Positions 6,505 to 62,093 of a stretch of 64,000 nt of DNA are shown here, one piece after another; within the stretch, counting starts at the first letter, position 1; each line of letters starts with the position of its first letter. The stretch covers positions 124,001 through 188,000 of the forward strand of contig JBBPBK010000095.1 of the NCBI GenBank assembly GCA_039720395.1, read 5' to 3'. The position numbers were made by a program, and so were the translations under genes. This stretch comes from Liquidambar formosana (lineage: Eukaryota; Streptophyta; Magnoliopsida; Saxifragales; Altingiaceae). A model generated the notes under the pieces. The model did no database searches, was not told the DNA's origin, and saw nothing but the letters and a program-made list of their open reading frames with translations.

Positions 6505-7245
<741 letters not shown>

Positions 7246-7339
7246 ACTCAATTTAAAGCCCAGTGTCATGAGCTCTCAATAACCTCATCTTTAATATTAC
7301 GTCCCATATCTCACATATCATTTCTCTCCACCTCTGAAA

Positions 7340-9438
7340 ATGATCCTCCCTCCTCTTCTCCTTGCTACCCTTATTGCCTCCACTTGCTTCACCACCTTCG
7401 CCTTTGGAGCCCCTCGACTGCCAAACGATGAAGGTATATATGATGTGCTTTGTCCATGCATGAGATTTCTACTTCTATCTTCAAAATTGCGATAATTTCA
7501 ATAAAATATGAAATTAGATTGCTCCTGCCGTACTGGGTCTGACTTTTTCGATTGATCCCGGTCCGTTTAATGGTGCAGAATATCCTATTCGCTTTGTACA
7601 GTTAGGATTAAGTGCACTTTATAATAAAATGAATAAATATATATTTACTGAGAATTAATTTGGTGAATATATACAATTTACATATATTTACTGTGTGTGT
7701 TTACACTTTATAGTGGAAGCTTTGCGGGAAATAGGAAGGACACTGCGAAAGAATTGGGAATTTGGTGTGGATCCATGCAGCGGAGAGTCGGGAGGGGCTA
7801 CCCAGATACCGGTGGAAGGATTTGTGAATAACGTCACATGTGACTGCACTTTTTCCAATTCCACAGTCTGCCACGTCGTAACCATGTATGCCTACTTTCT
7901 CTCTCTCTTCATACATATTTGACCAGTTTCAATCATTGCATAGTAAAATATAGATAAATTTTTAGATAATTTTATGTTTTTCATAAAATTTGTATAATTT
8001 TCTATGTATTTTCATATTTTCTTACGTTATTTACTTCATTTTTTATTATTCAATAAATATCTCATTAAATATATCTTAACATTATAATGGTGGTTTTGGA
8101 TGAAAGATTTGTAAAAGAGATTTTGAGCTAAAATGACATTTCAACATCAATTTCTGTTATTGTTATCATCATAATTTGGCATTAAAATCTCATCTTAGCT
8201 TAAGTCACTCTTTTGTTAATAATCCTTAGGTCTAATAGCATGTCTCATCTTAATAAAGATATGGGCTTTGTGGAGGTCTTAGCCAAAAAAAGAAGGAGGG
8301 GTGGGGGGGCTTTTTTATCTAAGACCACAAGTTTTATATCGAAAGGGCCACAAGTTTTAATAAGGAGGGTGGCTATTGCAATCCCTCAACTTTATTTATA
8401 AACCCCATTTTTTTTCACTTTTTAAGATTTTATGAAAAATATAAAAGGTATTTATGAAAACTGATCAAATTGTCCACTAAAAAGCATCATTTTGAATAAC
8501 TTTGTAAAATAAATTTTTTCCAAAATTTATCATTTATGGATTTTTTGATCATTTATAATTTTTGTTTTTGTAAAAATAAATAAAGACTATAAATAGTTAA
8601 AAATGCTCTTAAACGATAGATTGTGGACAAATTTTATTTTACAAAGTTTTTCAAAATAATTTTTTTAAAAGAAATAATGCGGTTAATTTTTATAAAAAAA
8701 TCTTTTATATTTTTTATAATTAAAAAAAAAAAAAAAAAAGTGAAATTTAGAAATAAAGTTGAGAGGTTACAAGGGTCCCTCTTTAATGATAAGATGATAG
8801 AAGATGCGACATCTCGATTCTCAAGCGCCTAACAATTCTATTCACTTTGTCGGCGGGCCTTTTATTGGTCAGGGATTCGTGGTTGCTACTTGCTAGGGAA
8901 GCATCTAAAGAATCTGACTGTTGGTTGGCTCGGTTTTGGGTTAAAGCCGAAACAACTCAAACCGACCCGAGTCAATTATTTCCATTTAGACAACAAAACA
9001 AGCCCTTAGTCTATTCCAATCAAATCATAGACCATCGTATCAAATAAAGCCCATTTATAATTTTATTCTTGGGTTTTCTTAACATGTAACCTAGGAATAC
9101 ATGTTAAACTGTAATTAATAACTTATTCATTGCATTGGAAATAATGAAAATGAATTGGAAATTGTGAAGGTTGTTTAGAAAAATGTGAAAATATTTGCAA
9201 AACTGTAAAAACACATTTTTCTATGCAATGATTGGCTTACTAATTGCAACTTAACATGTGCCCTTAGGGCACACGTTAAGAAAGCCCTTTATTATTTGCT
9301 AGTTTGTGACTTGTGAGTTTACTTTTGAAATCAAGGCAACTATAGTTTTTTTTTTTGTAAATGCAGACTTCTCATATCTCAAAATCTCTCAGGGGTTCTC
9401 CCACCAAAATTGGGCAAACTACCTTACCTCAAATACAT
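7340..9438 (+). CDS. receptor exons 1-3: signal peptide, N-cap and first LRR
   Basis: Exon 1 (7340-7433) encodes [17 protein letters not shown] and further residues, a typical secretion signal, then LPNDE. Exon 2 (7714-7885) continues [11 protein letters not shown] and contains the paired cysteines of the N-cap, including NVTCDCTF and STVCHVV. Exon 3 (9367-9438, 72 nt) encodes one repeat, [20 protein letters not shown], and ends in phase 2. It is easy to miss because it sits alone in an intron 2.9 kb from the next LRR exon. The N-cap and exon 3 most resemble RKF1-type members (CHVV ... LPYL). Confidence 0.85.
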
Positions 9439-12400
9439 GTAAGAACTTCTCAAACTTCTTTATTTCATTTTAGCCCTCAACATTTGCTAAATTACTTCTA
9501 TATACATACAAGAAAATGTTTAGATCGATATTTGATGTCAAATGCTAAGATTGATGTCAAATCCTTACAACATTGATCATGACTATTGAACTTTGTTTGT
9601 GTAGAAGACATATATGCGTGCATGATTGTTAAAAAGTGTGTAAAATTGTTATAAAAATGTTGTAAGAAAAAAGTTTAGTCTCGATCCCAATCTTAACCCT
9701 GTCTAAAGGCAAAGTTACCTACACATGCCTTTCCTAAACTACTTAGAATTCTATCGTATACATTCATTATTTTATTGAGTTCTTCTATATGGGACTACTC
9801 TATAGACCTATTACATAGACCTACTGATGTGGTCACTTTCTATTGGTCTCCTCTTTAAAAGGTACATAATTTGAAATCAAATGAAATCCTCCAAAATCAG
9901 GCCAAAATAACTGAATAACCCCCATTTTGTGTTTGAGCGCGAAAATCAAGAACAACAATATCGGACGTTCTCTCCTTTTCTCGTTCCCTCCTCCTCAAAC
10001 CAGTCAGTTACAATATCAAACATTCTCTCATTCTCTCTTCCACAAACCAATCAGTTACTCTTCTGAATAGACATCATATCAAGTTGCGACGGAAGATCGA
10101 ACGGGCTTTGTTTGTTGATTGCCGACTATATACTGTCAAAGTTTAGTTATCAAGTGGTGATGCGATGGTTTGAAGAAATGGTCAGAATCATGCTCGTTTT
10201 TTAGGATTAGATCGTTTTTTGATAATTGGGGAAAACTCTATGTGAATAAGTTTATTTTAACAACTATGAAATGGTTTAAAACAATGAAAATCTTAATAAC
10301 ACCCAAAATTTTTGAAATAATTCGGTTTAATGCTGTCAAAGACTTAGTTATTCAGTTGATTTATACTTTATAATGCACATGTTCATTCGTATTCATGGTA
10401 AAAGAAGAGATTTTTCATGGTAAAAGAAGGGGCTTTGTACTATCAATAAAAAAAATATGGATATTTGTTCAAAAAAATTGACTTATTAAGTTGTAAAGTT
10501 AACCACGGTATCACAACAGGGTTGATTGAACTAGCCCTTTGTTATGCAACTCCTACAATGCTTGTCAAACCCTTACAATATATTTTAGTTATTAAGTGAT
10601 TTTATAAACTTGCATGAAACTCTTAGGTGGTGTTTAATTTTTCTTCAAAGTTCTCTTAGATTTGTTGCCCATTCTTGCTTAAAACAAGAATTATTTACAG
10701 AGAAACTATTGTTTGGCTTTGAAATTCTAACTAGGGATGGGGGGTTGTTCTTTGTTAATGCTTACTTAAGCTCGAAGCCTTGTAACCAAAAAACAATTAG
10801 AGAATTGTGAATGAATTATTAACCTTTGGCTTTTTAAAAGTTAATATTTGCTTTTAACCCCTTGGTGGATTTCTTAGAATGTCTTTTTGGTAGATTCTTT
10901 TGGCTAAAGAATTGAATTTTACCCAATTTCATCTTATCTCGCAGTTAATCGTGTTTGGTTCCTTTCTTTTTATTTGGTCACCTATTTTCTAGCATAAAAG
11001 AGAAAAAAAAAAAAAAAAAGGATAAATTATTTTGCCACTTATTTTGCTACTTATTAAGTTATGTAGTTGTATTTTTTCCCAGTTTTAATCTAGTTATTAA
11101 ATCACAAAAATACATTTGTGCAATAGAGTCTATGTATATAAAAAGCTATTAAGAGATATAATTAAGTTATAAAGTGATGTTGGTGCATTATTGCAATCTT
11201 AGTAAGTTATTAAGTGGATACAATGGATAATTCAAAATAATTCCAAGTAAGTCATATAATAACTTGATATCACAAAGTAACTTGTTGCTAGTAATTCACA
11301 TAGTAACTTGGTTTCTAGTAAGTCATATAATAACTTGATATCACATAGTAACTTGTTCTTGGGTAAGTTACATAGTAAGTCAAATGGCTGATCAGGGAGA
11401 GAAAGTGAGAAGGTGATGAGTATGGGAAGCAACTTTTGAAATTTAGGAAATTCAAGAAAACGAGGAAGGAAAATATTACTATTAAATGAAATCCGTACAA
11501 ATATGGGATTGTAGGGTGTAATTGATTCTTATCTAATTCCTTAAATGGTTGTAGGCCAATCTATTAGGCTAAAAGGTTAGCCCCCCTATCATTTTGCTTC
11601 TGTGTTATATAGACTTTTAATTGATTTTCTGATCATAGAAAAACTGAATTTCATTGATGATTCCTTGCCTACAACCAACCCTTTAGTGGGTGTATATAGA
11701 GAACAAGAATAAATTAGAATGAAATAAATAATAATGAAATCATATATAGAAGGAAACAAATTCAAAAATCTTCTCTGACTTTTTTCCATTATATTTTCTC
11801 AATCTCCTTCCATGATATGCTCTTTTGATTTGTTTCCAATCTTTCTTGATCCATTCCTTGATTGCCATTTTCTTGATTTAATTCCTTAATACTGAGAACC
11901 TGTGAAATATAAAGGCATTCTAAGATTTCAATAAATAATCTCAATTCTATGTCTTAGTGGTTATGTTGATGTTGCCGTATTAGTATTAGTGTTATTAGTT
12001 CCCAAAGTGGGAATGAGAAGTTGAAACGCCTTTTTCAGTAGTTAATGTCACAAGACATCCAAACTTGCGTTAAATCGTCTTAGTCTCATCAAATTAAAAA
12101 TTTATTGATCATCTTTCTAGGATTTAGCTGTCACTTTTCAAGCATGAACGACGTCATAATAAATTTTTTTTTTCCTGTTAATATTTTCATTGAATACAAT
12201 CTTCTAAGGACTAATGCCACTTCTTCAGAATTATATATATGTAGTCCCTCCAACAACCTAGTAGAATCCAACTACCAATTCTCCTCCAAAGTTGCAACCT
12301 TTTGTTTATTGACCATTTCAAATTGAGAAAGACTTGAAGTTTCTCTTTTTAAACAGTGATCTCTCTCATAACTATTTGACTGGATCAATCCCAGAGAGTC

Positions 12401-15400
12401 TTGCTCAGCTTCCTCTTGTCAATCTGTAAGTTGTTCTTTACTTGCATTTGTAATTGCGCGAGCCTTTATTTTCCAGATAATTAGTGAATAGTTATGGATT
12501 TGCAAATTTGTAATTGTTAGTACACTGCAGGTCTCTTTCGGGGAATTTTATCAGTGGTAATATTCCCGAGAAAATTGGTGACATTGCTACACTTGAGCGG
12601 CTGTAAGTTATTAAATTTATAGAATTGAATGTCTATTACGGAAATGACTGATGCCTGACCATTTTTATAATTTAAATTGTCTTTTCCAGGGACTTAGAAG
12701 ATAATGAACTTAGCGGACCTCTTCATGAAAATCTTGGAAATTTGAGCAACTTGCGAGTACTGTAAGACTATTTTCATTCCCTCTTTTAATATTTAAATAC
12801 CTTGAATTCTAGTTTTCAATCAATGAGTTTCTAAATCTCTTGTAGGGTTATGAGATGTCATGCATGTGTAGTAAATACACACGATGAACAAGATAAACGA
12901 ATATGTATTGAAATTCCGGTTTTACCAACCTTGTAATACCTAGAAGGGGGTTGAATAGGCCGGTATTTTAAAACGTTTTATCCAATTTTTATTCAATCAC
13001 TTCAAACCCTAAAAGCCATCAATCAATCACACATAAATTAAACTGTAAAAGAGTAAAAATATAACAAGAATTTTTACGTGGAAAACCCTAGAAGGGAAAA
13101 ACCACGGGACCTCGTCCAGTTGAAGCGAATCCACTAAGAAAGCAATGAGTACAAGACATAATACTTACAGACTCCATGGACTTAAGTAATCGCCTTCACT
13201 CCCACGACTCGTATGAGCACCCTGAAAAGTGGCCCACATGATTAAAAAGGAGTCGCCACCTCATTTTTTAAGGAAACGAGGAAAACCCTAAAAACATTTT
13301 TGTTTTAAGAAAAAAAAACAATTGAATGACTCCATCTTGAAAAACGGAAAGGCAAAAAACTAGTCTTTTTGGAAGACAAAGAAACTAGGGATTCGGAGGC
13401 TAAGTTATGACATGGGAAGATTCTAAATAAAGCCTATAGGCACCCATGTCACCCTAATTGGTCTCTTAGTTTATTTGGGCTAGCTAAATTAAAGACTTTT
13501 CCATACAAATCAATATATCATCACAAGAAAATATGCATGCAAATATTCCATCCATCCATCCACATAAAAAAGAAAAGTAAAATAGTAAAAAAAAAAAAAA
13601 AAAAAGGAAGGAAAGAAAACCTAGGATACTTGGATCCATGTGGTTCGAAAAGAATAGGGTTATAACCTAATATGGATTTATGGTAAAAACCCTAAGTTTC
13701 CTTATTTTAAAATATGGAAAGTGTGATAAATGAACCAAATTTAGAAAATAAGGTAACTTCTACAATATGGAAACTTTGGATAAAAAGATAACTTATTTTA
13801 TAAGGAAACTTCTAATAATTACCATAATTTCCTATTAAGAAATAACCCTAAAAGGGAAAAGGAAAAGATTAAGGAAAGAAAATTAAGGCACATAGTAACT
13901 TGATATCACAAAGTAACATGTTGCTAGTAATTCACATAGTAACTTGGTTTCTAGAAAGTCATATAATAACTTGATATCACATAGTAACTTGTTCTTGGGT
14001 AAGCCACATAGTAAGTCAAATGGCTGACCAGGGAAAGAAAGTGAGAAGGTGATAAGTATGGGAAGCAACGTTTGAAATTTAGGAAATTCAAGAAAACGAG
14101 GAAGGAAAATATTGCTATTAAATGAAATCCCTACAAATATGGGATTGTAGGGTGTAACTGATTTATTATCTAATTCCTTAAATGGCTGTAGGCCAATCTG
14201 TTAGGTTAACAGGTTAGGCCCCCTATCATTTTGCTTCTGTGTTATACAGACTTTTAATTTATTTTCTGACTATAGAAAAACTGAAGTTCATTGATGATTG
14301 CTTGCCTACAACCAACCCTTTAGTGGGTGTATATAGAGAACAAGAATAAATAATAATGAAATAATATATAGAAGGAAACAAATTCAATAATATTCTTTGA
14401 CTTTTTTACATTATATTTTCACAATCTCCTTCCAGGATATGCTCTTTTGATTTGTTTCCAATATCTCTTGATCCAATCCTTGATTGCCATTTTCTTGATT
14501 TAATTCCTTAATACTGAGCACCTGTGAAAGATAAAGGCATTCTAAGATTTCAATAAATAATCTCAATTCTATGTCTTGGTGGTTATTTTGCTGTTGCCAT
14601 ATTAGTATTAGTGTTATTAGTTCCCGAAGTGGGAATGAGAAGTTGAAATACCTTTTAAGTAGTTAACGTCACAAGACATCCAAACTTGCGTTAAATCGTC
14701 TTAGTCTCATCAAAATAAAAATTTATTGATCATCTTTCTAGGATTTAGCTGTCATTTGTCAAGCATGAACAACGTCATAATAAAATTTTTTTTTTCCTGT
14801 TAATATTTTCATTGAATACAATCTTCTAAGGACTAATGCCACTTCTTCAGAATTATATATATGTGGTCCCTCCAATAACCTAGTATTATCCAACTACCAA
14901 CTCCTCCAAAGTTGCAACCTTTTGTTTAATGACCATTTCAAATTGATAAAGATTTGAAATTTCTCTTTTTAAACAGTGATCTCTCTCTTAACTATTTGAC
15001 TGGATCAATCCCAGAGAGTCTTGCTCAGCTTCCCCTTGTCATTCTGTAAGTTGTTCTTTACTTGCATTTGTAAATGCGCGAGCCTTTATTCTCCAGATAA
15101 TTAGTAAATAGTTAGGGATTTGCAAATTTGTAATTGTTAGTACACTGGTCTCTTTCGGGGAATCTTATCAGTGGTAATATTCCCGAGAAAATTGGTGGCA
15201 TTGCTACACTTGAGCGGTTGTAAGTTATTAAATTTATAGAATTGAATGTCTATTACGGCAATGACTGATGCCTGACCTTGTTTAAAATTTAAATTGTCTT
15301 TTCCAGGGACTTAGAAGATAATGAACTTAGCGGACCTCTTCATGAAAATCTTGGAAATTTGAGCAACTTGCAGATACTATAAGACTATTTTCATTCCCTC

Positions 15401-18400
15401 TTTTAATATTTAAATACCTTGAATTCTAGTTGTCAATCAATGAGTTTCTAAATCTCTTATAGGGTTATGAGATGTTATGCATGTGTAGTAAATATGCACG
15501 ATGAACAAGATAAATGAATATGTACTGAAATTCTGGTTTTACCAACCTTGTAATACCTAGAAAGGGGTTGAATAGGTATTTTAATATATTTTATCCAATT
15601 TTTATTCAATCACTTCAAACCCTCAAAAGCTATCAATCAATCATACATAAATTAAACCGTAAAACAGTAAAAATATCACGAGAATTTTTACGTGGAAAAC
15701 CCTAGAAGGGAAAAACCACGGGACCTCATCCAGTTGAAGTGAATCCACTAAGAAAGCAATGAGTGCAAGACACAATACTTACAAACTCCGCGGACTTAAA
15801 GTAATCGACTTCACTCTGTAAACCCTGAAAAGTGGCCGACATGATTAAAAAGGAGTCGCCACCTCATTTTTTAAGGAAATGAGGAAAACCTTAAAAACCT
15901 TTTTGTTTTAAGAAAAAAAAAACAATGGAATGACTCCATGTTTAAAAATGGAAAGGCAAAAAACTAGTCTTTTTGGTTGACAAAAAAACTAAGGATTCGG
16001 AGGCTAAGTTATGACATAGATAGATTCTAGGCAAAGCCTATAGGCACCCATGTCACCCTAATTGGTGTCTTAGTTTATTTGGGCTAAATTAAAGTCTTTT
16101 CCATACAAATCAATATATCATCACAAGAAAATATGCATGCAAATATTCCATCCATCCATCCACATAAAATAGAAAAGTAAAATAGTAAAAAACAAGAAAG
16201 GAAAGAAAACCTAGGATACTTAGATCCTAGGGTGGACTTGAACCTTAAGGCGCCTACGTACCATGCATAGAAATTGATGGATCAAACTCCACGTGGTTCG
16301 AAAAGAACAGGGTTATAACCTAATATGGACTTATGGTAAAAACTTTATGTTTCCTTATTTTAAAATATGGAAAGTGTGATAAATAAACCAAGTTTAGAAA
16401 ATATGGTAACTTCCACAAGATGGAAACTTTGGATAAAAAGGCAACTTATTGGATAAGGAAACTTCTAATAATTACCATAATTTCATATTAAGAAATAACC
16501 CTAAAAGGGAGATGGGAATGATTAAGGAAAGAAAATTAGGGCACATAGTAACTTGATATCACAAAGTAACTTGTTGCTAGTAATTCACATAGTAACTTGG
16601 TTTCTAGTAAGTCATATGATAACTTGATATCTCATAGTAACTTGTTCTTGGGTAAGTCACATAGTAAGTCAAATAGCTAATCAGGGAGAGAAAGTGAGAA
16701 GGTGATAAGTATGGGAAGCAACGTTTGAAATTTAGGAAATTCAAGAAAACGAGGAAGGAAAATATTGCTTTTAAATGAAATCCCTACAAATATGGGATTG
16801 TAGGGTGTAACTGATTATTATCTAATTCCTTAAATGGCTGTAGGCCAATCTATTAGGCTAACAAGTTAGGCCCCCCTATCATTTTGCTTCTGTGTTATAT
16901 GGACTTTTAATTGATTTTTTTATTATAGAAAAACTGAATTTCATTGATGATTGCTTGCCTACAACCAACCCTTTAGTGGGTGTATATAGAGAACAAGAAT
17001 AAATTAGAATGAAATAAATAATAATGAAATCATATATAGAAGGAAACAAATTCAAAAATCTTCTTTGACTTTGTCCCATTATATTTCTCAATCTCCTTCC
17101 ATGGTATGCTCTTTTGATTTCTTTCCAATTTTTCTTGATCCATTCCTTGATTTTCATTTTCTTGATTTAATCCCTTAATACTGAGAACCTGTGAAAGATA
17201 AAGGCATTCTAAGATTTCAATAAATAATCCCAATTCTATGTCTTGGTGGTTATGTTAATGTTGCCATATTGGTATTAGTGTTATTAGTTCCCAAAGTGGG
17301 AATGAGAAGTTGAAACACGTTTTAAGTAGTTAATGTCACAAGACATCCAAACTTGCGTTAAATCGTCATAGTCTCATCTAATTAAAAATTTATTGATCAT
17401 ATTTCTACGATTTAGGTATCACTTGTCTAGCATGAACGACGTCATAATAATTTTTTTTCTCTTGTTAATATTTTCATTGAATACAATCTTCTAAGTACTA
17501 ATGCCACTTCTTCAGAATTATCTATATGTAGTCCCTCCAACAACCAAGTAGAATCCAACTACCAAGTCTCCTCCAAAGTTGCAACCTTCTGTTAAATGAC
17601 CATTTCAAATTAAGAAAGACTTGAAGTTTCTCTTTTTAAACAGTGATCTCTCTCGTAACTATTTGACTGGATCAATCCAAGAGAGTCTTGCTCAGCTTCC
17701 CCTTGTCAATCTGTAAATTGTTCTTTACTTGCATTTGTAAATGCGCGAGCCTTTATTTTCCAGATAATTAGTGAATAGTTATGGACTTGCAAATTTGTAA
17801 TTGTTAGTACACTGCAGGTCTCTTGCGGGGAATTTTATCAATGGTAATATTCCCGAGAAAATTGGTGACATTGCTACACTTGAGCGGCTGTAAGTTATTA
17901 AATTTATAGAATTGAATGTCTATTACGGCAATGACTGATGCCTGACCATTTTTATAATTTAAATTGTCTTTTCCAGGGACTTAGAAGATAATGAACTTAG
18001 CGGACCTCTTCATGAAAATCTTGGAAATTTGAGCAACTTGCGAGTACTGTAAGACTATTTTCATTCCCTCTTTTAATATTTAAATACCTTGAATTCTAGT
18101 TGTCAATCAATGAGTTTCTAAATCTCTTGTAGGGTTATGAGATGTCATGCATGTGTAGTAAATACGCACGATGAACAAGATAAACGAATATGTATTGAAA
18201 TTCCGGTTTTACCAACCTTGTAATTCCTAGAAGGGGGTTGAATAGGCCGGTATTTTAATATGTTTTATCTAATTTTTATTCAATCACTTCAAACCCTAAA
18301 AGCCATCAATCAATCACACATAAATTAAACATAAAAGAGTAAAAATATAACGTGAATTTTTACGTGGAAAACCCTAAAAGGGAAAAACCACGGGACCTCG

Positions 18401-21400
18401 TCCAGTTGAAGCGAATCCACTAAGAAAGCAATGAGTACAAGACATAATACTTACAGACTCCACGGACTTAAGTAATCGCCTTCACTCCCACGACTCGTAT
18501 GAGCACCCTGAAAAGTGGCCCACATGAAAGGAGTCGCCACCTCATTTTTTAAGGAAACTAGGAAAACCCTAAAAACATTTTTGTTTTAAGAAAAAAAAAA
18601 CAATTGAATGACTCCATATTGAAAAATGGAAAGGCAAAAGCCTAGTCTTTTTGGAAGACAAAGAAACTAGGGATTCGGAGGCTAAGTTATGACATGGGAA
18701 GATTCTAAATAAAGCCTATAGGTACCCATGTCACCCTAATTGGTCTCTTAGTTTATTTGGGCTAGCTAAATTAAAGACTTTTCCATACAAATCAATATAT
18801 CATTACAAGAAAATATGCATGCAAATATTCCATCCATCCATCCACATAAAAAAGAAAAGTAAAATAGTAAAAAAAAAAAAAAAAGAAAGGAAAGAAAACC
18901 TAGGATACTTGGATCCATGTGGTTCGAAAAGAATAGGGTTATAACCTAATATAGATTTATGGTAAAACCCTAAGTTTCCTTATTTTAAAATATGGAAAGT
19001 GTGATAAATAAACCAAATTTAGAAAATAAGGTAACTTCTACAATATGGAAACTTTGGATAAAAAGATAACTTATTTTATAAGGAAACTTCTAATAATTAC
19101 AATAATTTCCTATTAAGAAATAACCCTAAAAGGGAGAAGGAAAAGATTAAGGAAAGAAAATTAGGGCACATAGTAACTTAATATCACAAAGTAACATGTT
19201 GCTAGTAATTCACATAGTAACTTGGTTTCTAGAAAGTCATATAATAACTTGATATCACATAGTAACTTGTTCTTGGGTAAGCCACATAGTAAGTCAAATG
19301 GCTGACCAGGGAAAGAAAGTGAGAAGGTGATAAGTATGGGAAGCAACGTTTGAAATTTAGGAAATTCAAGAAAACGAGGAAGGAAAATATTGCTATTAAA
19401 TGAAATCCCTACAAATATGGGATTGTAGGGTGTAACTGATTTATTATCTAATTCCTTAAATGGCTGTAGGCCAATCTATTAGGTTAACAGGTTAGGCCCC
19501 CTATCATTTTGCTTCTGTGTTATACAGACTTTTAATTTATTTTCTGACTATAGAAAAACTGAAGTTCATTGATGATTGCTTGCCTACAACCAACCCTTTA
19601 GTGGGTGTATATAGAGAACAAGAATAAATAATAATGAAATACTATATAGAAGGAAACAAATTCAAAAATATTCTTTGACTTTTTTACATTATATTTTCAC
19701 AATCTCCTTCCAGGATATGCTCTTTTGATTTGTTTCCAATATCTCTTGATCCAATCCTTGATTGCCATTTTCTTGATTTAATTCCTTAATACTGAGCACC
19801 TGTGAAAGATAAAGGCATTCTAAGATTTCAATAAATAATCTCAATTCTATGTCTTAGTGGTTATGTTGATGTTGCCGTATTAGTATTAGTGTTATTAGTT
19901 CCCAAAGTGGGAATGAGAAGTTGAAACACCTTTTCAGTAGTTAATGTCACAAGACATCCAAACTTGCGTTAAATCGTCTTAGTCTCATCAAATTAAAAAT
20001 TTATTGATCATCTTTCTAGGATTTAGCTGTCACTTTTCAAGCATGAACGACGTCATAATAAATTTTTTTTTTCCTGTTAATATTTTCATTGAATACAATC
20101 TTCTAAGGACTAATGCCACTTCTTCAGAATTATATATATGTAGTCCCTCCAACAACCTAGTAGAATCCAACTACCAATTCTCCTCCAAAGTTGCAACCTT
20201 TTGTTTATTGACCATTTCAAATTGAGAAAGACTTGAAGTTTCTCTTTTTAAACAGTGATCTCTCTCATAACTATTTGACTGGATCAATCCCAGAGAGTCT
20301 TGCTCAGCTTCCCCTTGTCAATCTGTAAGTTGTTCTTTACTTGCATTTGTAATTGCGCGAGCCTTTGTTTTCCAGATAATTTGTGAATAGTTATGGATTT
20401 GCAAATTTGTAATTGTTAGTACACTGCAGGTCTCTTTCGGGGAATTTTATCAGTGGTAATATTCCCGAGAAAATTGGTGACATTGCTACACTTGAGCTGC
20501 TGTAAGTTATTAAATTTATAGAATTGAATGTCTATTACGGAAATGACTGATGCCTGACCATTTTTATAATTTAAATTGTCTTTTCCAGGGACTTAGAAGA
20601 TAATGAACTTAGCGGACCTCTTCATGAAAATCTTGGAAATTTGAGCAACTTGCAGATACTGTAAGACTATTTTCATTCCCTTTTTTAATATTTAAATACC
20701 TTGAATTCTAGTTGTCAATCAATGAGTTTCTAAATCTCTTGTAGGGTTATGAGATGTTATGCATGTGTAGTAAATATGCACGATGAACAAGATAAATGAA
20801 TATGTACTGAAATTCTGGTTTTACCAACCTTGTAATACCTAGAAAGGGGTTGAATAGGTATTTTAATATATTTTATCCAATTTTTATTCAATCACTTCAA
20901 ACCCTCAAAAGCTATCAATCAATCATACATAAATTAAACCGTAAAACAGTAAAAATATCACGAGAATTTTTACGTGGAAAACCCTAGAAGGGAAAAACCA
21001 CGGGACCTCATCCAGTTGAAGTGAATCCACTAAGAAAGCAATGAGTACAAGACACAATACTTATAGACTCCACGGACTTAAAGTAATCGCCTTCACTCTA
21101 TAAACCCTGAAAAGTGGCCGACATGATTAAAAAGGAGTCGCCACCTTTTTTTTTTAAGGAAATGAGGAAAACCCTAAAACCCTTTTTGTTTTAAGAAAAA
21201 AAAAACAATGAAATGACTCCATGTTTAAAAATGGAAAGGCAAAAAACAAGTCTTTTTGCATGCAAATATTCCATCCATCCATCCACATAAAATAGAAAAG
21301 TAAAATAGTAAAAAAAAAACAAGAAAGGAAAGAAAGCCTAAGATACTTAGATCCTAGGGTGGACTTGAACCTCAAGGCGCCTACGTACCATGCATAGAAA

Positions 21401-24400
21401 TTGATGGATCAAACTGCACGTGGTTCGAAAAGAACAGGGTTATAACCTAATATGGACTTATGGTAAAAACTTTATGTTTCCTTATTTTAAAATATGGAAA
21501 GTGTGATAAATAAACCAAGTTTAGAAAATATGGTAACTTCCACAAGATGGAAACTTTGGATAAAAAGGCAACTTATTGGATAAGGAAACTTCTAATAATT
21601 ACCTTAATTTCATATTAAGAAATAACCCTAAAAAGGAGATGGGAAAGATTAAGGAAAGAAAATTAGGGCACATAGTAACTTGATATCACAAAGTAACTTG
21701 TTGCTAGTAATTCACATAGTAACTTGGTTTCTAGTAAGTCATATGATAACTTGATATCTCATAGTAACTTGTTCTTGGGTAAGTCACATAGTAAGTCAAA
21801 TAGCTAATCAGGGAGAGAAAGTGAGAAGGTGATAAGTATGGGAAGCAACATTTGAAATTTAGGAAATTCAAGAAAACGAGGAAGGAAAATATTGCTTTTA
21901 AATGAAATCCCTACAAATATGGGATTGTAGGGTGTAACTGATTATTATCTAATTCCTTAAATGGCTGTAGGCCAATCTATTAGGCTAACAGGTTAGGCCC
22001 CCCTATCATTTTGCTTCTGTGTTATATGGACTTTTAATTGATTTTTTTATTATAGAAAAACTGAATTTCATTGATGATTGCTTGCCTACAACCAACCCTT
22101 TAGTGGGTGTATATAGAGAACAAGAATAAATTAGAATGAAATAAATAATAATGAAATCATATATAGAAGGAAACAAATTCAAAAATATTCTTTGACTTTG
22201 TCCCATTATATTTTCTCAATCTCCTTCCATGGTATGCTCTTTTGATTTCTTTCCAATTTTTCTTGATCCATTCCTTGATTTTCATTTTCTTGATTTAATC
22301 CCTTAATACTGAGAACCTGTGAAAGATAAAGGCATTCTAAGATTTCAATAAATAATCTCAATTCTATGTCTTGGTGGTTATGTTAATGTTGCCATATTAG
22401 TATTAGTTTTATTCGTTCCCAAAGTGGGAATGAGAAGTTGAAACACGTTTTAAGTAGTTAATGTCACAAGACATCCAAACTTGCGTTAAATCGTCATAGT
22501 CTCATCTAATTAAAAATTTATTGATCATATTTCTACGATTTAGTTGTCACTGGTCTAGCATGAGCGACGTCATAATAATTTTTTTTCTCCTGTTAATATT
22601 TTCATTGAATACAATCTTCTAAGTACTAATGCCACTTCTTCAGAATTATATATATGTAGTCCCTCCAACAACCAAGTAGAATCCATCTACCAAGTCTCCT
22701 CCAAAGTTGCAACCTTCTGTTTAATGACCATTTCAAATTAAGAAAGACTTGAAGTTTCTCTTTTTATACAGTGTTCTCTCTCGTAACTATTTGACTGGAT
22801 CAATCCCAGAGAGTCTTGCTCAGCTTCCCCTTGTCAATCTGTAAGTTGTTCTTTACTTGCATTTGTAAATGCACGAACCTTTATTTTCCAGATAATTAGT
22901 GAATAGTTACGGATTTGCAAATTTGTACTTGTTGGTACACTGCAGGTCCCTGTTGGGGAATCGTATCAGTGGTAATATTCCCGAGAAAATTGGTGACATT
23001 ACTACACTTGAGCGGCTGTAAGTTATTAAATTTATAGAATTGAATGTCTATTACGGCAATGACTGATGCCTGACCTTGTTTATAATTTAAATTGTCTTTT
23101 CCAGGGACTTGAAAGATAATCAACTTAGCGGACCTCTTCATGAAAATCTTGGAAATTTGCGCAACTTACGGAAACTGTATGACTGTTTCCATTCCCTCTT
23201 TTAATATTTAAATACCTTGAATTCTAGTTGTCAATCAATGAGTTTCTAAATCTCTTGTTGGGTTATGAGATGTCATGCATGTGTAATAAATATGAACGAT
23301 GAACATGATAAATGAATATGTATTTAAATTCCAGTTTTACCAACCTTGTAATACCTAGAAGGGGGTTGAATTGGTATTTTAATATATTTTATCCAATTTT
23401 TATTCAATCACTTCGAACCCTAAAAGCTATCAATCAATCACACATAAATTGAACTTTAAAACAGTAAAAATATCACGAGAAATTTGACGTGGAAAACCCT
23501 AGAAGGGAAAAACAACGGGACCTCGTCTAGTTGAAGCGAATCCACTAAGAAAGCAATGAATACAAGACACAATACTTACTGACTCCACTGACTTAAGTAA
23601 TCACCTTCACTCCCACGACTCGTATGTGAACCCTGAAAAGTGGCCCACATAATTAAAAAGGAATTGCCACCTCATTTTTTAAGGAAACGAGGAAAACCCT
23701 AAAACCTTTTGTTTTAAGAAAAAAAAAAACAATTGAATGACTCCATGTTTAACAATGGAAAGGCAAAAAACTAGTCTTTCTAGAAGACAAAGAAACTAGG
23801 GATTCGGAGGCTAAGTTATGACATGGGAAGATTCTAGGCAAAGCCTATAGGCACCCATGCCAGCCTAATTTGTCTTTTAGTTTATTTGGGCCAAATTAAA
23901 GTCTTTTCCATACAAATAAATATATCATCACAAGAAAATATGCAAGCAAATATTCCATCCATCCATCCATCCACATAAAAAAGAAAAGAAAAACAGTATA
24001 AAAAAAAATAAAAAAAAGGAAAGAAAACCTGGGATACTTGGATCCTAGGGCAGACTTGAACCTCAAAGCGCCTATGTACCATGCATAGAAATAGATGGAT
24101 CAAACTCGACGTGGTTCGAAAAGAACAGGGTTATAACCTAATATGGACTTATGTTAAAAACCCTATGTTTCCTTATTTTAAAATATGGAAAGTGTGATAA
24201 ATAAACCAAGTTTAGAAAATAAGGTAACTTCCACAAGATGGAAACTTTGGATAAAAAGACAACTTATTTGATAAGGAAACTTCTCATAATTACCACAATT
24301 TCCTATTAAGAAATAACCCTAAAAGGGAGAAGAGAAAGATTAAGGAAAGAAAATTAGGGCACATAGTAACTTGATATCACAAAGTAGCTTGTTGCTAGTA

Positions 24401-27400
24401 ATTCACATAGTAACTTGGTTTCTAGTAAGTCATATAATAACTTGATATCACATAGTAACTTGTTCTTGGGTAAGTCACATAGTAAGTCAAATGGCTGATC
24501 AGGGAGAGAAAGTGAGAAGGTGATAAGTATGGGAAGCAACGTTTGAAATTTTGGAAATTCAAGAAAACGAGGAAGGAAAACATTGCTATTAAATGAAATC
24601 CCTACAAATAAGGGATTGTAGGGTGTAATTGATTATTATCTAATTCCTTAAATGGCTGTAAGGCCAATCTATTAGGCTAACAGGTTAGGCCCCCCTATCA
24701 TTTTGCTTCTATGTTATATGGATTTTTAATTGATTTTCTGGGGATAGAAAAACTGAATTTCATTGATGATTGCTTGCCTGCAACCAACCCTTTTATGGGT
24801 TTATATAGAGAACAAGAATAAATAAGAATGAAATAAACAATAATGAAATCATATATAGAAGGAAACAAATTCAAAAATCTTCTTTGACTTTTTTACATTA
24901 TATTTTCACAATCTCCTTCCATGATATGCTCTTTTGATTTGTTTCCAATTTTTCTTGATCCATTCCTTGATTGCAATTTTCTTGATTTAATCCCTTAATA
25001 TTGAGAACCTGTGAAAGATAAAGGCATTCTAAGATTTCAATAAATAATCTCAATACTATGTCTTGGTGGTTATGTTGATGTTGCCATATTAGTATTAGTG
25101 TTATTAGTTCCCAAAGTGGGAATGAGAAGTAGAAACACCTTTTAAGTTGTTAATGTCACAAGATATCCAAACTTCGTTAAATCGTCATAGTCTCATCAAA
25201 TTAAAAATTTATTGATCATCTTTCTAGGATTTAGCTGTCACTTGTCTAGCATGCACAACGTCATAATAATTTTTTTTTTTTCCTGTTAATATTTTCATTG
25301 AATACAATCTTCTATGGACTAATGCCACTTCTTCAAAATTATATATATGTACTCCCTCCAACAACCTAGTAGAATCCAACGACGAACTCTCCTCCAAAGT
25401 TGCAACCTTCTATTTAATAACCATTTCAAATTAAGAAAGACTTGAAGTTTCTCTTTTTAAACAGTGATCTCTCTCGTAACTATTTGACTGGATCAATCCC
25501 AGAGAGTCTTGCTCAGCTTCCCCTTGTCGTTCTGTAAGTTATTCTTTACTTTCATTTGTAAATGCGCAAGCCTTTATTTTCCAGATAATTAGTGAATAGT
25601 TACGGATTTGCAAATTTGTACTTGTTGGTACACTGCAGGTCCCTTTTGGGGAATCGTATCAGTGGTAATATTCCCGAGAAAATTGGTGACATTACTACAC
25701 TTGAGCGGCTGTAAGTTATTAAATTTATAGAATTGAATGTCTATTACAGCAATGACTGATGCCTGACCTTGTTTATAATTTAAATTGTCTTTTCCAGGGA
25801 CTTGAAAGATAATCAACTTAGCGGACCTCTTCATGAAAACCTTGGAAATTTGAGCAAGTTGTGGAAACTGTAAAACTTTTTTCATTCCCTTTTTTAATAT
25901 TTAAATAACTTGAATTCTAGTTGTTAATCAATGAGTTTCTAAATCTCTTGTAGGGTTATGAGATGTCATGCATGTGTAGTAAATATGCACGATGAACAAT
26001 ATAAATGACTATGTATTGAAATTTCGGTTTTACCAACCTTATAATACCTAGAAGGGGGTTGAATTGGTATTTTAATATATTTTATCCAATTTTTATTCAA
26101 TCACTTCAAACCCTAAAAGCTATCAATCAATCACACATAAATTAAACTGTAAAACAGTAAAAATATCATGAGAATTTTTACGGGGAAAACCCTAGAGGGG
26201 AAAAACCATGAGACCTCATCCAGTTGAAGCAAATCCACTAAGAAAGCAATGAGTACAAGAAACAATACTTACAGACTCCACGGACTTAAGTAATTGCCTT
26301 CACTCCCATGACCAGTATATGAACCCTGAAAAGTGGACCACATGATTAAAAGGAGTCGCCACCTCATTTTTTAAGGAAACGAGGTAAACCTTAAAAACCT
26401 TTTTGTTTTAAGAAAAAAAAACAATTGAATGACTCCATGTTTAAAAATAGAAAGGCAAAAAACTAGTCTTTTTGGAAGACAAAGAAACTAGGGATTCAGA
26501 GGCTAAGTTATGACATGGGAAGATTCTAGGCAAAGCCTATAGGCACCCATGTCACCCTAATTGGTCTCTTAGTTTATTTGGGCTAAATTAAAGTCTTTTC
26601 CATACAAATCAATATATGATTACAAGAAAATATGCATGCAAATATTCCATCCATCCATCCACATAAAAAAGGAAAGAAATATCATAAAATAAAATAAAAA
26701 ATAGAAAGGAAAGAAAACCTAGGATACTTGGATCCTAGGGCGGACTTGAACCTCAAAGCACCTACGTACCATGCATAGAAATAGATGGATCAAACTTCAC
26801 GTGGTTAAAAAAGAATAGGGTTATAACCTAATATGGACTTATGGTAAAAACCCTAAGTTTCCTTATTTTAAAACATGGAAAGTGTGATAAATAAACCAAG
26901 TTTAGAAAATAAGGTAACTTCCACAAGACGGAAACGTTGGATAAAAAGGCAATTTATTTTATAAGGAAACTTCTAATAATTACCATAATTTTCTATTAAG
27001 AAATAATCCTAAAAGGGAGAAAGGAAACATTAAGGAAAGAAAATTAGGGCACATAGTTACTTGTTATCACGAAGTAACTTGTTGCTAGTAATTCACTTAG
27101 TAACTTGGTTTCTATTAAGTCATATAATAACTTGATATCACATAGTAACTTGGTCTTGGGTAAGTCACTTAGTAAGTCAAATGGCTGATCAGGGAGGGAA
27201 AGTGAGAAGGTGATAAGTATGGGAAGCAACGTTTGAAATTTAGGAAATCCAAGAAAACGAGGAAGGAAAATATTGCTATTAAATGAAATCCCTACAAATA
27301 TGGGATTGTAGGGTGTTACTGATTATTATCTAATTCCTTAAATGGCTGTGGGCCAATCTATTAGGTTAACAGGTTAGGCCCCCTTATCATTTTGCTTCTG

Positions 27401-30400
27401 TGTTATATGGACTTTTAATTGATTTTTTGATTATAGAAAAACTGAATTTCATTGATGATTGCTTGCCTACAACCAACCCTTTAGTGGGTGTATATAGAGA
27501 ACAAGAATAAATTAGAATGAAATAAATAATAATGAAATCATATATAGAAGGAAACAAATTCAAAAATCTTCTTTGACTTTTTTCCATTATATTTTCTCAA
27601 TCTCCTTCCATGATATGCTCTTTTGATTTGTTTCCAATTTTTCTTGATCTATTCCTTGATTGCCATTTTCTTGATTTAATTCCTTAATACTGAAAACCTG
27701 TGAAAGATAAAGGCATTCTAAGATTTCAATAAATAATCTCAATACTATGTCTTGGTGGTTATGTTGATGTTGCCATATTAGTATTAGTGTTATTAGTTCC
27801 CAAAGTGGGAATGAGAAGTTGAAACACCTTTTAAGTAGTTAATGTCATAAGACATCCAAACTTGCGTTAAATCGTCTTAGTCCAATCAAATTAAAAATTT
27901 ATTGATCATCTTTCTAGGATTTAGCTGTCACTTGTCAAGCATGAACAACGTCATAATAAATTTTTTTTTTCCTGTTAATATTTTCATTGAATACAATCTT
28001 CTAAGGACTATTGCCACTTCTTCAGAATTATATAAATGTAGTCCCTCCAACAACCTAGTAGAATCCAACTACCAACTCTCCTCCAAAGTTGCAACCTTTT
28101 GTTTAATGACCATTTCAAATTGAGAAAGACTTGAAATTTCTCTTTTTAAACAGTGATCTGTCTCGTAACTATTTGACTGGATCAATCCCAGAGAGTCTTG
28201 CTCAGCTTCCCCTTGTCATTCTGTAAGTTGTTCTTTACTTGCATTTGTAAATGTGCAAGCCTTTATTTTTGAGATAATTAGTGAATAGTTACAGATTTGC
28301 AAATTTGTAATTGTTGGTACACTGCAGGTCTCTTCTGGGGAATCGTATCAGTGGTAATATTCCCGGGAAAATTGGTGACATTGCTACACTTAAGCAGCTG
28401 TAAGTTATTAAATTTGTAGAATTGAATGTCTATTACGGCAATAGCTGATGCCTGACCTTGTTTATAATTTAAATTGTCTTTTCCAGGGACTTAGAAGATA
28501 ATCAACTTAGTGGACCTCTTCATGAAAATCTTGGAAATTTGAGCAACTTGCGGATACTGTAAGACTATTTTCATTCCCTCTTTTAATATTTAAATACCTT
28601 GAATTCTAGTTGTCAATCAATGAGTTTCTAAATCTCTTGTTGGGTTATGAGATGTCATGCATGTGTAGTAAATATGCACGATGAACAAGATAAATGAATA
28701 TGTATTGAAATTCCGGTTTTACCAACCTTATAATACCTAGAGGGGGATTGAATAGGTATGTTAATATATTCTATCCAATTTTTATTCAATCACTTCAAAC
28801 CCTAAAAGCCATCAATCAATCACACATAAATTAAACCGTAAAACAGTAAAAATATCACGAGAATTTTTACGTGGAAAACCCTAGAAGGGAAAAACCATGG
28901 GACCTCGTCCAGTTGATGCAAATCCACTAAGAAAGCAATGAGTACAAGACAGAATACTTACAGACTCCACGGACTTAAGTAATCGCCTTCACTCCCACAA
29001 CCCGTCTGTGAACCCTGAAAAGTGGCCCACATAATTAAAAAGGAGTCGCTACCTCATTTTTTAAGGAAACGAGGAAAACCCTAAAAACCTTTTTGTTTTA
29101 AGAAAAAAAAAACAATTGAATGACTTCATGTTTAAAAATGGAAAGGCAAAAAGCTAGTCTTTTTAGAAGACAAAGAAACTAGGGATTCGGAGGCTAAGTT
29201 ATGACATAGGAAGATTCCAGGCAAAGCCTATAGGCAGCCATGTCACACTAATTGGTCTCTTAGTTTGTTTGGGCTAAATTAAAGTCTTTTCCATACCAAT
29301 CAATATATCATTGCAAGAAAATATGCATGCAAATATTCCATCCATCCATCCACATAAAAAAGAAAAGAAAAATAGTTAAAAAATAAATAAATAAGGAAAG
29401 AAAACCTAGGATACTTGGATCCTAGGGCGGACTTGAACCTCAAAGCGCCTATGTACCATACATAGAAATAGATGGATCAAACTGCACGTGGTTCGAAAAG
29501 AATAGGGTTATAACCTAATATGGACTTATGGTAAAAACCATAAAGTTTCCTTATTTTAAAATATGGGAAGTGTGATAAATAAACCAAGTTTAGAAAATAA
29601 GGTAACTTGCATAAGATGGAAACTTTGGATAAAAAGACAACTTATTTTATAAGGAAACTTCTAGTAATTACCATAATTTCCTATTAAGAAATAACCCTAA
29701 ATGGGAGAAGGGAAAGATTAAGGAAAGAGAATTAGGGCACTTTCATACCCTACTTACCTTGTGCAATTTACTCCAAGTAATTGCAAAATTGAGCAATAGT
29801 AACCTTATTTGCAATAAGGCGATTACCACACCTATTTGCACCCTTACATATGCTCAAAAACAAATCAAAAAGAACAAATTACAAATCTAGACAGAATTGA
29901 ATTAAGGCCTAAAATCTTCCATTAATCATGTAAATAACAAGAATAATAAGATAACAAAAATCCTAATGCAACCCTAATACCATACCCTAACTAACATGAA
30001 TAAAAACTATGAAAAATATGAAAAAAGACCCTAATGATCATAGGAATATCAAACAACCTCATTAAATATGAAAATAAAGCAATATCAAGTCAAAGAAGAT
30101 GATATAATACCCCCATGTAAAACCCTATACTCTAAAAAGGATAATTATCCTTGCAAAAGAATAATGTCTCCAAAACCCTAGAAATCCACTACATGAATGC
30201 AACATTTATCATGATTATTCTACATGCATAACATATATAACAACCATGAAAAGAAACGACTCAAAAACCCTAACTTAGCATGCTATATGAAACTTACCCA
30301 AAATAAGGATAATAGAAACCCTAGAATCACAACTATGCGTTAAATCCCATAAAATAAGTCTAAAACATGTAAAACTTATCATGAACAGCATTTAAATCAT

Positions 30401-36400: not shown

Positions 36401-39400
36401 TCTTTTTTTTTTCTTTTTTTTTTTCTCATGTTGCACATATAGATTTCTTGACAGACTGTTTTTTACTGCTACAGCATTCTTTCTGGAAACAATTTCAATG
36501 GAAGTATACCGGAAAGTTTTATCAATTTAATGAATTTAAAAGATTTGTAAGTAATATTTACAACTATTTGGACATCTATCATTTTCTAGTTTGAACTCCC
36601 CTGACTCCATGTACTGCTTGCAGTAGGATAGATGGAAGTAGTTTATCTGGCAAGATACCTGATCTCATTGGGGCCTGGGGAAAGATTACGAGACTGTGAG
36701 TACTCTAATTGATTTCATTGTTCTGTCACTGTTTTTACCCACTAGGATTTATTTGAAGACATTCAAAATTTACTCTTAATCTGACCTTTTGTAGGGATAT
36801 GGAAGGCACAGGCATGGTGGGCCCCATACCTTATAGCATAAGCAAGCTGATGTACTTAGGAGAGTTGTGAGCACATGTTCTTCTACTATCTGATAGTTGC
36901 TATATTCAGTTCAGTGATGTTATGCATGGTTGCAAACTTTAAATATAGAGAGATGGAGCAATTAATTTAATGAGATGCTTCTTCTTTGTCAGGAGGATAT
37001 CTGATTTGAAAGGATCATATATAAGGTTTCCTGATTTGAAAAATCTGACACAATTGGAAATACTGTGAGTTAAATATGGATTTATTTTTCTTCAAGGTGC
37101 AGTCATCTTTATTGTTTAGCTTGTCATTCCACTAATATATCAAGCTGGTTCGTTTTATCTTGTGTGGTGCAGGGTATTGAGAAATTGCGCAATTAAGGAT
37201 TCAATCCCAAACTATATGGGAGACATAGAATCTCTATACGTTTTGTAAGTTGCTTTTTGTGGGCTTTCCTGTACAGATGCTTGGATTCTTGAATTTATCT
37301 TTTCAGCCAGTGCTGATATCCTCTTGTTTTATTTTATTTTATCTTGCTGGAAAGGAAAGTCATTAACATAAACTAGAAACATAATAGAAGCGGGTATAAA
37401 ATTCTTCTTTGAAATAAAATACTACGTAATTCACTGGGAGGACTTTGTAAGATGGTGCAGTTAAGGTGGTCACTCTCTTCTCTAGAAAGTTGTGTCACAC
37501 CCCTAATTTTCAAGAGTGGTTAACAAAAACCACATCCAATTTTTTGAGCCCCATAAGAAGCAAAACTTTCCAAAAATGAAATTTCCTCTGAAATTATAAA
37601 ACATTGAACAACTAGGAAGCTATGGCTAACCCAAAAATCAGCAATATTACATTCGTCAATATTACATTCGTCAACTAAGTAGATAAAATTTGCTCCAACT
37701 TTATACAAATAATAAATAATATAAATTGATACAATAATTTATCCAAATTTGGACCCTTCTTCTACTACGTGCCTTCAACGATGATTACCTAAAAATTATT
37801 GGGGTGAGCTACAACTGCTCAATACAAAAAATAATCCCTACATGATAGATGAAGTTTTAAATATCATAAGAACAGTACATAAAACATAATAATACAAATT
37901 CTCAATTATATTCTTCAAATACCATTTGATGAATGATGATCAACACTAAATTATCTCCTCAAATCAATAATGACAATGATCATAATTTCTCAAATCAAAT
38001 AATATCATATATATATATATATATATATCAATCACCCTACATAAAATTAGAGTTTGATATATCTATACTACCTATAAAAGGTTGAATCTCAAAAAAACTT
38101 TTGAATGACCAATATACCCTTATTTTAAATATAAAAAAAAAACATATCTACCTTTCCTTTAATTGAAACACATAATAAACATTCTTATCATTTGGTAACA
38201 AATGAAAGTTAGATTTTAACTCAAACTCTTAACAAATTAAAGTTAGATTCTTACTCAAATTCTTTTTCCTAGAGCAACTATCAAATTGCATGATAATATA
38301 TATAAATATAAACTCTTTAAATATTCCGTTTTATGAAGAAAAAAAAATTATGAATGTATATCTAAAGAGTTTTTAATCTTTCGTTGACAATTTTGATATA
38401 AAAAAAAATGTACTTTCGAATTTTAAACTTTATCTTTTATGAAAAAATATAAAATCTTTATGTATTTATTATTTTGTATAACTAATATTATTTAAAAATA
38501 TTCACATGCAACGCACGTGTGCTATATCTAGTACACAAAAATAACCATAACTCATTGCACAAGAATTTACTCTCCCAAAGTTGTTAAAACAATGTCTAAC
38601 TATAAGGATATATACAGGGCTGATCATGTCAGAATATCCCAGAGTATCCCATTCGATTACGGCCGTCCGTGAGTGACACGTGCACATTCATGCGTCCATT
38701 CGATTACGGCCGTCCGTAAGTGACACGCACAACCGTGATCAAACGGGATATCCCGGATATCCCGTACATGATCAAAGCTTAGGATATATATATTTACACT
38801 TCTTGCATGAAATCAAATTGTCATGTGTCCTTTGTTGCCAAGTGTCTTTGTACATGCATTCTTGCATGAAACCTAGTTACCAAGTATCCCTTGATGTGTC
38901 CATCATTTAGGTATCCACCTAAACCAAGTTGCCACCTCATGTTTTGTGTGCCACCTCATGCTTCTACAATTGCCGCTTATTGTTATTTATTTGCCACCTC
39001 CTACTATTATTGCCACATCATGCTTAATCAAATGATTCTATTTAATACTAACAATATTCATAACATAACAACAATAACAATATTTTTACCTTTCAAATGA
39101 AATTCAATCCTGACATAAACATATAATTAACTTATAATAACTATAAGGGTATTACAGTTACCTTATAATTTTTTTTTTTTTCTTTTGGCAATTGATATAG
39201 GAGGAATTACAGATTGGTCTGGCTACAGGCAAATAATTATAGTTCAATGCAATTGACTACTAACTTCGTAGTAAATGACTACTAACTTAAATAAGAATGA
39301 CTACTGATTGTAATTATTTGCCTGTTGCCAGAACAATCTGTAATTTCCCCCCTACCCCTAATCCCTAACAACCGAGGACTTTCTAAGATGATAAAAGGTA

Positions 39401-45200: not shown

Positions 45201-45810
45201 ATGACTCTTATGGGTAATATTCAACTTCTTTCTTGTTGCAGAACTTCGTGGGCTAATAGAGCTACAAACAAGTTATTTCACCTTACAACAAATCAAAGCT
45301 GCAACCAATAACTTTGACTCTGCAAATAAGATAGGTGAAGGAGGATTTGGGCCGGTTTACAAGGTAACCATGGACCTTTTTTCGTTTTACACCTTAGGTT
45401 ATTAACCTGTCTAAACAAAGAGATGCAACAATTAGGCCTTGTGTCAATTTATGTGCACATGCTTAAATCAGTGAAAAAAAGGAAAAGAAATATCATCTCG
45501 GGAAGAGTATGATTTTGATAATCTGCCATTCTTGATTTTAGGGTGTAATGTTAGATGGCACAATGATCGCTGTTAAGCAACTCTCCTCCAAATCAAGGCA
45601 AGGGAACCGCGAATTTGTCAATGAGATAGGCATGATATCTGCCTTACAACACCCGAATCTCGTGAGGCTCTATGGCTGTTGTATTGAAGGAAACCAGTTG
45701 TTGCTAATATATGAATACATGGAAAACAATAGTCTTGCCCGTGCGCTTTTTGGTACATACCTCACTAACATCTCTAGTATTATTTTACATACAAGAATAA
45801 AATTATGACT

Positions 45811-45852
<42 letters not shown>

Positions 45853-48110: not shown

Positions 48111-48168
<58 letters not shown>

Positions 48169-49345: not shown

Positions 49346-49402
<57 letters not shown>

Positions 49403-60995: not shown

Positions 60996-61001
60996 GGCAA
61001 C

Positions 61002-62033: not shown

Positions 62034-62084
62034 TCGGTCGTCGGGCTCGTGTAGAGTATCTTCAACCCCGAGCCGCCCGTGCTT

Positions 62085-62093
62085 TAATTGCTA
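62085..62093 (-). promoter_or_regulatory. possible leaky stop codon between gag-protease and RT
   Basis: On the minus strand the gag-protease stop reads TAG CAA TTA, and the RT frame continues in the same frame. UAG followed by CARYYA is the well-described type I translational readthrough context. It would yield a gag-pol fusion in a minority of translations. Readthrough itself is inference. Confidence 0.6.

Follow-up and report, generated by a model that had tools for sequence, protein, structure and literature searches.

Recent expansion of a three-exon leucine-rich repeat module to seven copies within a receptor kinase gene of Liquidambar formosana

Seven tandem copies of a block of three exons, which encode the second to fourth leucine-rich repeats (LRRs) of the ectodomain, are found within a single LRR-malectin receptor kinase gene of Liquidambar formosana. 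The gene, which is At1g53430-like and whose exons outside the array are open in our gene model, spans positions 7340-51754 on the plus strand of the window, that is, the whole stretch of 64,000 nucleotides that was analyzed (contig JBBPBK010000095.1, positions 124,001 to 188,000; all coordinates are those of the window). Arrays of homologous exons in a cell-surface recognition protein bring to mind arthropod Dscam, in which the exons of an array are mutually exclusive and one member is included per transcript. The expansion described here is real, recent and functional-looking, and its Dscam-like reading is possible but unsupported. In our assessment, the array is probably the product of tandem duplication and unequal exchange, with the modules spliced in series into a long, diversifying LRR solenoid.

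An array of seven modules in one gene

The array consists of seven direct repeat units that jointly occupy 11253-29740, all on the plus strand, between exon 3 (LRR1) and the LRR5 exon of the same gene. The units are 2502-2691 bp long and 92.9-97.5% identical in pairwise comparisons; chance falls far short of explaining repeats this long and this similar, and the array is real. An initial sequence-only reading of the window had described seven tandem copies of about 2.6 kb in the orientation of the gene, each with three LRR exons, inside one receptor kinase gene between exon 3 and the downstream LRR exons, and this description is borne out. Unit 1 (11253-13888) contains exons e1, e2 and e3 at 12357-12425, 12531-12602 and 12690-12761; unit 2 (13889-16541) at 14977-15045, 15148-15219 and 15307-15378; unit 3 (16542-19166) at 17644-17712, 17818-17889 and 17977-18048; unit 4 (19167-21668) at 20256-20324, 20430-20501 and 20589-20660; unit 5 (21669-24359) at 22772-22840, 22946-23017 and 23105-23176; unit 6 (24360-27049) at 25465-25533, 25639-25710 and 25798-25869; and unit 7 (27050-29740) at 28154-28222, 28328-28399 and 28487-28558.

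In each unit, the exon for LRR2 is 69 nt long and those for LRR3 and LRR4 are 72 nt each, and all of them are entered and left in phase 2, so that any number of modules keeps the reading frame. The claim that the module exons are free of stop codons also holds, with neither stops nor indels in the 21 exons. The module peptides are identical to one another in 59-68 of the 71 positions, and all seven differ; module 7 is the nearest to the consensus of homologues (53 of 70 residues). A conceptual protein with a single module comprises 1022 amino acids and has no internal stop, and those with seven modules (1448 amino acids) and with none (951 amino acids) are likewise in frame. Recognizable splice sites had been claimed for every exon, and here the picture is mixed: 40 of the 42 splice dinucleotides are intact, all of them GT-AG, and both losses are in module 2, where a CAG is deleted before 15148, removing the acceptor AG of e2, and the donor of e3 reads AT instead of GT (15379-15380). 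When the conceptual protein is limited to exons with intact sites, module 2 is represented by e1 alone and the length becomes 1400 amino acids.

Selection on the module exons

The introns that were copied together with the exons can still be aligned and therefore provide a built-in neutral yardstick. We used for this purpose the non-coding columns of the units, with the exons and splice surroundings excluded, and counted each distinct departure from the consensus as one event, which gave 355 over the 2137 columns; changes in exons were then classed on the codon that carries each of them. The spectrum of non-coding changes predicts 38.0 exon events, and 36 are seen. Synonymous events (11 compared with 9.96 expected) look neutral, and the non-synonymous ones, 25 altogether, are distributed highly unevenly over the LRR. 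At the 30 codons of the LRR scaffold, one non-synonymous event is seen and 10.35 are expected (P = 8.5e-5 given the 25 events), whereas at the 15 x positions of the xxLxLxx motif, 15 are seen and 6.31 expected (P = 1.0e-4 given the 25 events), so that the rate of change at these residues is about 2.4 times the neutral one. Elsewhere in the module, 9 events are seen compared with 10.17 expected. Furthermore, there are no stops where 1.18 are expected, which alone is not significant, and no exon indels where 2.9 are expected (P = 0.055). When each codon is counted once, 18 codons vary, of which one belongs to the scaffold (P = 1.2e-4) and nine to xxLxLxx (P = 1.5e-3).

The masks for the scaffold and for xxLxLxx were taken from the general LRR consensus, and two checks were made that do not depend on that choice in the same manner. 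Both use the 26 non-synonymous events that result when changes are classed against the consensus codon; this count yields 10 synonymous and 16 xxLxLxx events, the difference being a single change in module 7, at codon 25, which is synonymous on its own background. In this count, the pattern persists after omission of any single module (7 of 7). With classes of positions derived from 112 homologues, no events fall where 90% or more of the sequences have a hydrophobic residue (5.93 expected), one falls on N/G/P positions (5.12 expected) and 19 fall on variable positions (14.0 expected); codons 0, 5, 28, 49 and 69, which are near-invariant and mostly polar in the homologues, show 6 changes in the modules compared with 1.78 expected. 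When the masks are shifted along the module, none of the 69 shifts reaches the real mask (the scaffold minimum is 6 and the xx maximum is 12), and the shifts with 12 xx hits are those by 24 and 47 codons, that is, by one and two LRR periods. Taken together, the deficit of changes in the scaffold and the excess in xxLxLxx suggest that the modules, considered jointly, have been made into folded protein and that the face they expose diversified in the meantime.

History of the array

Distances between the units (Jukes-Cantor, JC) range from 0.025 to 0.075, which, with plant substitution rates taken from general knowledge, would put the age of the array roughly at millions to ten-odd million years. 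The relationships between units change along their length. In windows of 300 alignment columns, module 1 is nearest to module 4 in windows 600 to 1500 and to module 3 thereafter; module 3 is nearest to module 5 in windows 0 to 1200; and modules 2 and 4 are mutually nearest in 6 of the 9 windows. At a larger scale, the two-unit block 11253-15975 matches 16542-21258 at 96.4% identity. We infer from this mosaic a history of unequal exchange and conversion, which would leave a pattern of precisely this kind.

Serial inclusion of the modules and the alternatives

The explanation that we favor starts with a genomic segment of an LRR-malectin receptor kinase gene that carries the exons for LRR2, LRR3 and LRR4 and that would have been duplicated in tandem; unequal exchange between the units, to which the mosaic pattern points, would then have brought the number of copies to seven. 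The sequence shows that each copy can be spliced in without a change of frame, given that the borders of the exons and of the 213-nt module are all in phase 2. The intact modules would be spliced in series, with module 2 giving e1 alone, to produce a receptor of about 1400 amino acids that would present about 27 LRRs (by our own count) instead of 11, followed by the malectin domain and the kinase without alteration. The array would thus probably build and diversify a longer recognition surface. Serial inclusion appears to fit the data better than alternative choice because devices for exclusive choice were not found; it also matches the annotation of relatives in Acacia that are discussed below.

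Several points weigh against this explanation and have to be taken into account. We infer the inclusion of the modules in transcripts from the genomic sequence. Module 2 has lost one acceptor and one donor, the donors of e1 in module 3 and of e3 in modules 5 and 6 deviate from the commoner form, and no significant constraint is seen on splice sites when they are pooled (in the 12 dinucleotide columns, about 2.0 substitutions are expected, and one substitution plus one deletion are seen). The deficit of exon indels drops to P = 0.24 once events near homopolymers are excluded; private amino acid changes number 0-3 per module, too few to prove constraint on any one of them; and the masks were drafted, from the LRR consensus, after the variable columns had been seen, an objection that the two checks above, by homologues and by shifted masks, partly address. 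Finally, the Acacia proteins are gene predictions, not transcripts, and the structural model for one of them is of moderate quality (mean pLDDT 69.0, pTM 0.48, LRR block means 63-95).

The alternative that survives best, albeit one to which we assign a fairly low probability, is that the intact modules are optional cassettes, such that receptors would differ in the number or choice of modules, at the extreme with one per transcript. Like mutually exclusive arrays, this one consists of homologous exons in tandem whose lengths and phases agree; the frame is kept in any combination of exons, one module alone gives a receptor of the normal 1022 amino acids, the seven module peptides are all distinct, several donors are weaker than the others, and the surface-diversifying pattern of substitutions would suit alternative modules equally well. 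Elsewhere, exclusive splicing is usually enforced by steric block across short introns, by the combination of U2 with U12 sites, by a penalty on the reading frame or by pairing between docking and selector sequences. In the array, the introns between modules are 2111-2288 nt long, which leaves no steric block; the intact sites, being uniformly GT-AG, show no mix of types; and double inclusion of a 213-nt module (71 codons) incurs no frame penalty. Antisense pairing of the unique flanking introns was compared with that of 40 shuffles for unit 2 of the seven: for the upstream intron, it reaches 22.3 bits (shuffle mean 24.0, maximum 30.2), and for the downstream intron, 26.3 bits (shuffle mean 26.4, maximum 32.2), in neither case above the shuffles. 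An additional point against optional inclusion, and a weak one because module 7 shares the deviation, is that all seven modules lack the R that stands at the module end in 102 of 111 homologues. What the array shares with those of the Dscam type is that homologous exon cassettes lie in tandem in the gene for a recognition protein of the cell surface; it differs in that the modules consist of three exons, that signs of exclusive choice were not found and that docking/selector-like pairing does not exceed shuffles for unit 2. The suggestion in the sequence-only reading that these are alternative ectodomain exons thus finds no backing in intron length, splice site type, reading frame or the pairing that was examined. 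Dscam-like exclusive choice is not preferred, for want of an enforcing device, and is retained as a rival. Rather improbable, too, is a splicing-variable cassette system, in which a single locus would vary the number or choice of LRR2-4 modules in its receptors between tissues, between treatments or at random; if it were true, a single gene would hold a repertoire of diversified recognition surfaces.

Less probable still is that most of the copies are dead, with one or two modules used and the rest skipped in splicing as intronic relics. The two broken splice sites of module 2 and the lack of detectable constraint on splice sites as a class would be compatible with such decay, and the mean divergence is no lower in the exons (6.2%) than in the introns within modules (5.1%) or in the rest of the unit (5.9%). 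Against it stand the single scaffold change where 10.35 are expected, a deficit that outlasts the omission of any module, and, with the reservations on significance given above, the lack of stops and of exon indels. A dead array is rejected because the modules, viewed jointly, show non-neutral substitutions in their exons. One or two of them, most readily module 2, may nevertheless be dead, as the private changes per module are too few for a test of any single module. An assembly artefact, with a wrong number or order of copies resulting, for example, from two haplotypes or misjoined reads, is very improbable: short-read assembly has difficulty with 2.6-kb tandem repeats that are 93-97% identical, but the units differ from one another (JC 0.025-0.075) and are mosaic over two-unit blocks, which argues against simple duplication in assembly, and a similar array is predicted in Acacia.

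Expansions in relatives

Three protein searches, with the best 120 matches taken from each, yielded at least 353 proteins, in 193 of which the ectodomain could be measured. In 12 of the 193, more than 345 residues separate the cap from the malectin motif, and nine of these, all except P0340, P0305 and P0034, were read. The closest parallel is the predicted 1116-residue protein P0324 of Acacia pycnantha (K1719_032020), which has, in the same position, four tandem LRR2-4 modules of 23+24+24 residues that are identical to one another in 61-68 of 71 positions. The modules in the window are identical to those of P0324 in 39-43 of 71 positions (two of the four Acacia modules were compared), and because the identity within each species exceeds that between the species, the two expansions look to be independent. 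An AlphaFold2 model of P0324, made with 45 relatives, places beta-strands at intervals of ~24 residues between residues 95 and 476, a pattern that reads as one unbroken solenoid. In the predicted protein P0044 of Acacia crassicarpa (1319 amino acids), a related, larger LRR block is repeated, and P0350 of Aristolochia fimbriata, also predicted, has one extra, diverged three-LRR block. The sequence-only reading was aware of no comparable array among plant receptor kinases; as far as predicted proteins go, P0324 contradicts this, and the two related expansions further weaken the case for uniqueness. In P0315 (At3g14840-like, 1241 amino acids), most of the LRR block is doubled in frame, a different duplication in the same family; P0339 has a short tail repeat, and P0333, P0347, P0303 and P0345 contain a second malectin stretch or unrelated insertions. 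The last full residue of the module, mentioned above, is V, I or K in the seven modules of the window and V in the four of A. pycnantha.

When the seven-module LRR region was the query, the best 120 matches were mostly bacterial or other LRR proteins, none with this array, and the matches listed for the lengthened query were mostly long or fused gene models. The closest stretch among the matches listed is in P0005 of L. formosana itself (L1049_000849), with 95.8% identity over 191 amino acids of the kinase and 78% over 241 amino acids. In its second half, this gene model passes from the cap straight to LRR10, and LRR1-9 are missing, perhaps because an LRR region at that point confused gene prediction.

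Gene structure and surroundings

The gene, supported by the gene model, Pfam and homologues, comprises 21 exons in addition to the 21 of the modules, all on the plus strand. The exons upstream of the array encode a signal peptide, identified by eye (exon 1, 7340-7433), the N-terminal cap (exon 2, 7714-7885) and LRR1 (exon 3, 9367-9438). Downstream, single exons encode LRR5 (36475-36546), LRR6 (36624-36695), LRR7 (36795-36866), LRR8 (36993-37064), LRR9 (37173-37244), LRR10 (40169-40246) and LRR11 (40379-40444); these are followed by three short exons within 40620-40950 (40620-40679, 40771-40809 and 40895-40950), two exons for the malectin domain within 43625-44554 (43625-43995 and 44356-44554), a transmembrane exon identified by eye (44639-44773) and five kinase exons within 45242-51754 (45242-45363, 45542-45752, 45853-46090, 50543-50693 and 51323-51754). 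Pfam detects Malectin (PF11721) at residues 406-589 (7.3e-39) and the kinase at 666-934 (5.5e-50), along with LRR families, so that the order is LRR ectodomain, malectin, transmembrane segment, kinase. Many of the best 120 database matches are named At1g53430/At1g53440-like, and most of the full-length ones, which are plant proteins of the LRR-malectin kinase family, are 62-69% identical to the query; 112 of the 120 have a length of 960-1045 amino acids, in which a single module can be accommodated. The ectodomain has a relative of solved structure, PDB 9hhu, which matches over query residues 30-593. By domain order and homology, the gene belongs with the LRR-malectin receptor kinases, presumably in the subfamily LRR-VIII-2, despite its seven modules; a single LRR2-4 module is usual for the family but not strictly defining.

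Directly upstream of the start codon, 6565-7246 contains long CT microsatellites and tandem repeats of 197 bp (2.1 copies) and 68 bp (2.4 copies), several of which carry the splice-like motif CTCCAGGTAAACG. At the other end of the window, 58749-63782 on the minus strand contains open reading frames of a Ty3/gypsy-type retroelement, named by eye from their translations: gag/protease-like (62091-63782), reverse-transcriptase-like (61002-62090) and RNase H/integrase-like (58749-61001).

Comparison with known systems and implications

A study of rice LRR-kinases describes 72-nt, phase-2 LRR exons and growth of LRR regions by exon duplication (PMC3050792). The one-LRR exons in rice split the first Leu of xxLxLxx, as in the window; the difference is that duplication in rice was inferred from old repeats, whereas the present one is recent, has reached seven copies and took kilobases of intron along. 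In Tetrahymena, tandem arrays of 90-bp phase-2 LRR exons have been reported, and unequal crossing over and possibly retrotransposition were proposed as the means of their spread (PMC6564038); these arrays share with the window tandem, uniform phase-2 LRR exons and differ in that they come from a ciliate and consist of single exons rather than a three-exon module. The usual LRR-malectin receptor kinases have the same domain order and one set of LRR2-4 exons where the present gene has seven. The ~27 LRRs that would result exceed the common peaks of 5, 10, 20 or 21 LRRs given in a survey of LRR-kinases (PMC5380761). Among the listed titles and abstract openings from the open-licence literature, no such array in a plant receptor kinase was found, and none of the five mechanism terms looked for is present in PMC3228551. 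VIII-2 is one of four subfamilies of LRR receptor-like kinases in which one study detected positive selection (PMC5296948), and CORK1, an LRR-malectin kinase of the wider family, is required for responses to cellooligomers (PMC9563578).

The growth of LRR receptors by exon duplication is usually inferred from old, diverged repeats; in L. formosana, this known kind of growth has been caught while recent, when the copied introns still align. That this LRR block has also expanded in proteins predicted for Acacia and Aristolochia suggests a preferred place for growth. Such a site would fall in a family that includes CORK1, which is needed for responses to cell-wall fragments (PMC9563578). If the number of copies varies between individuals, it could tie to recognition.

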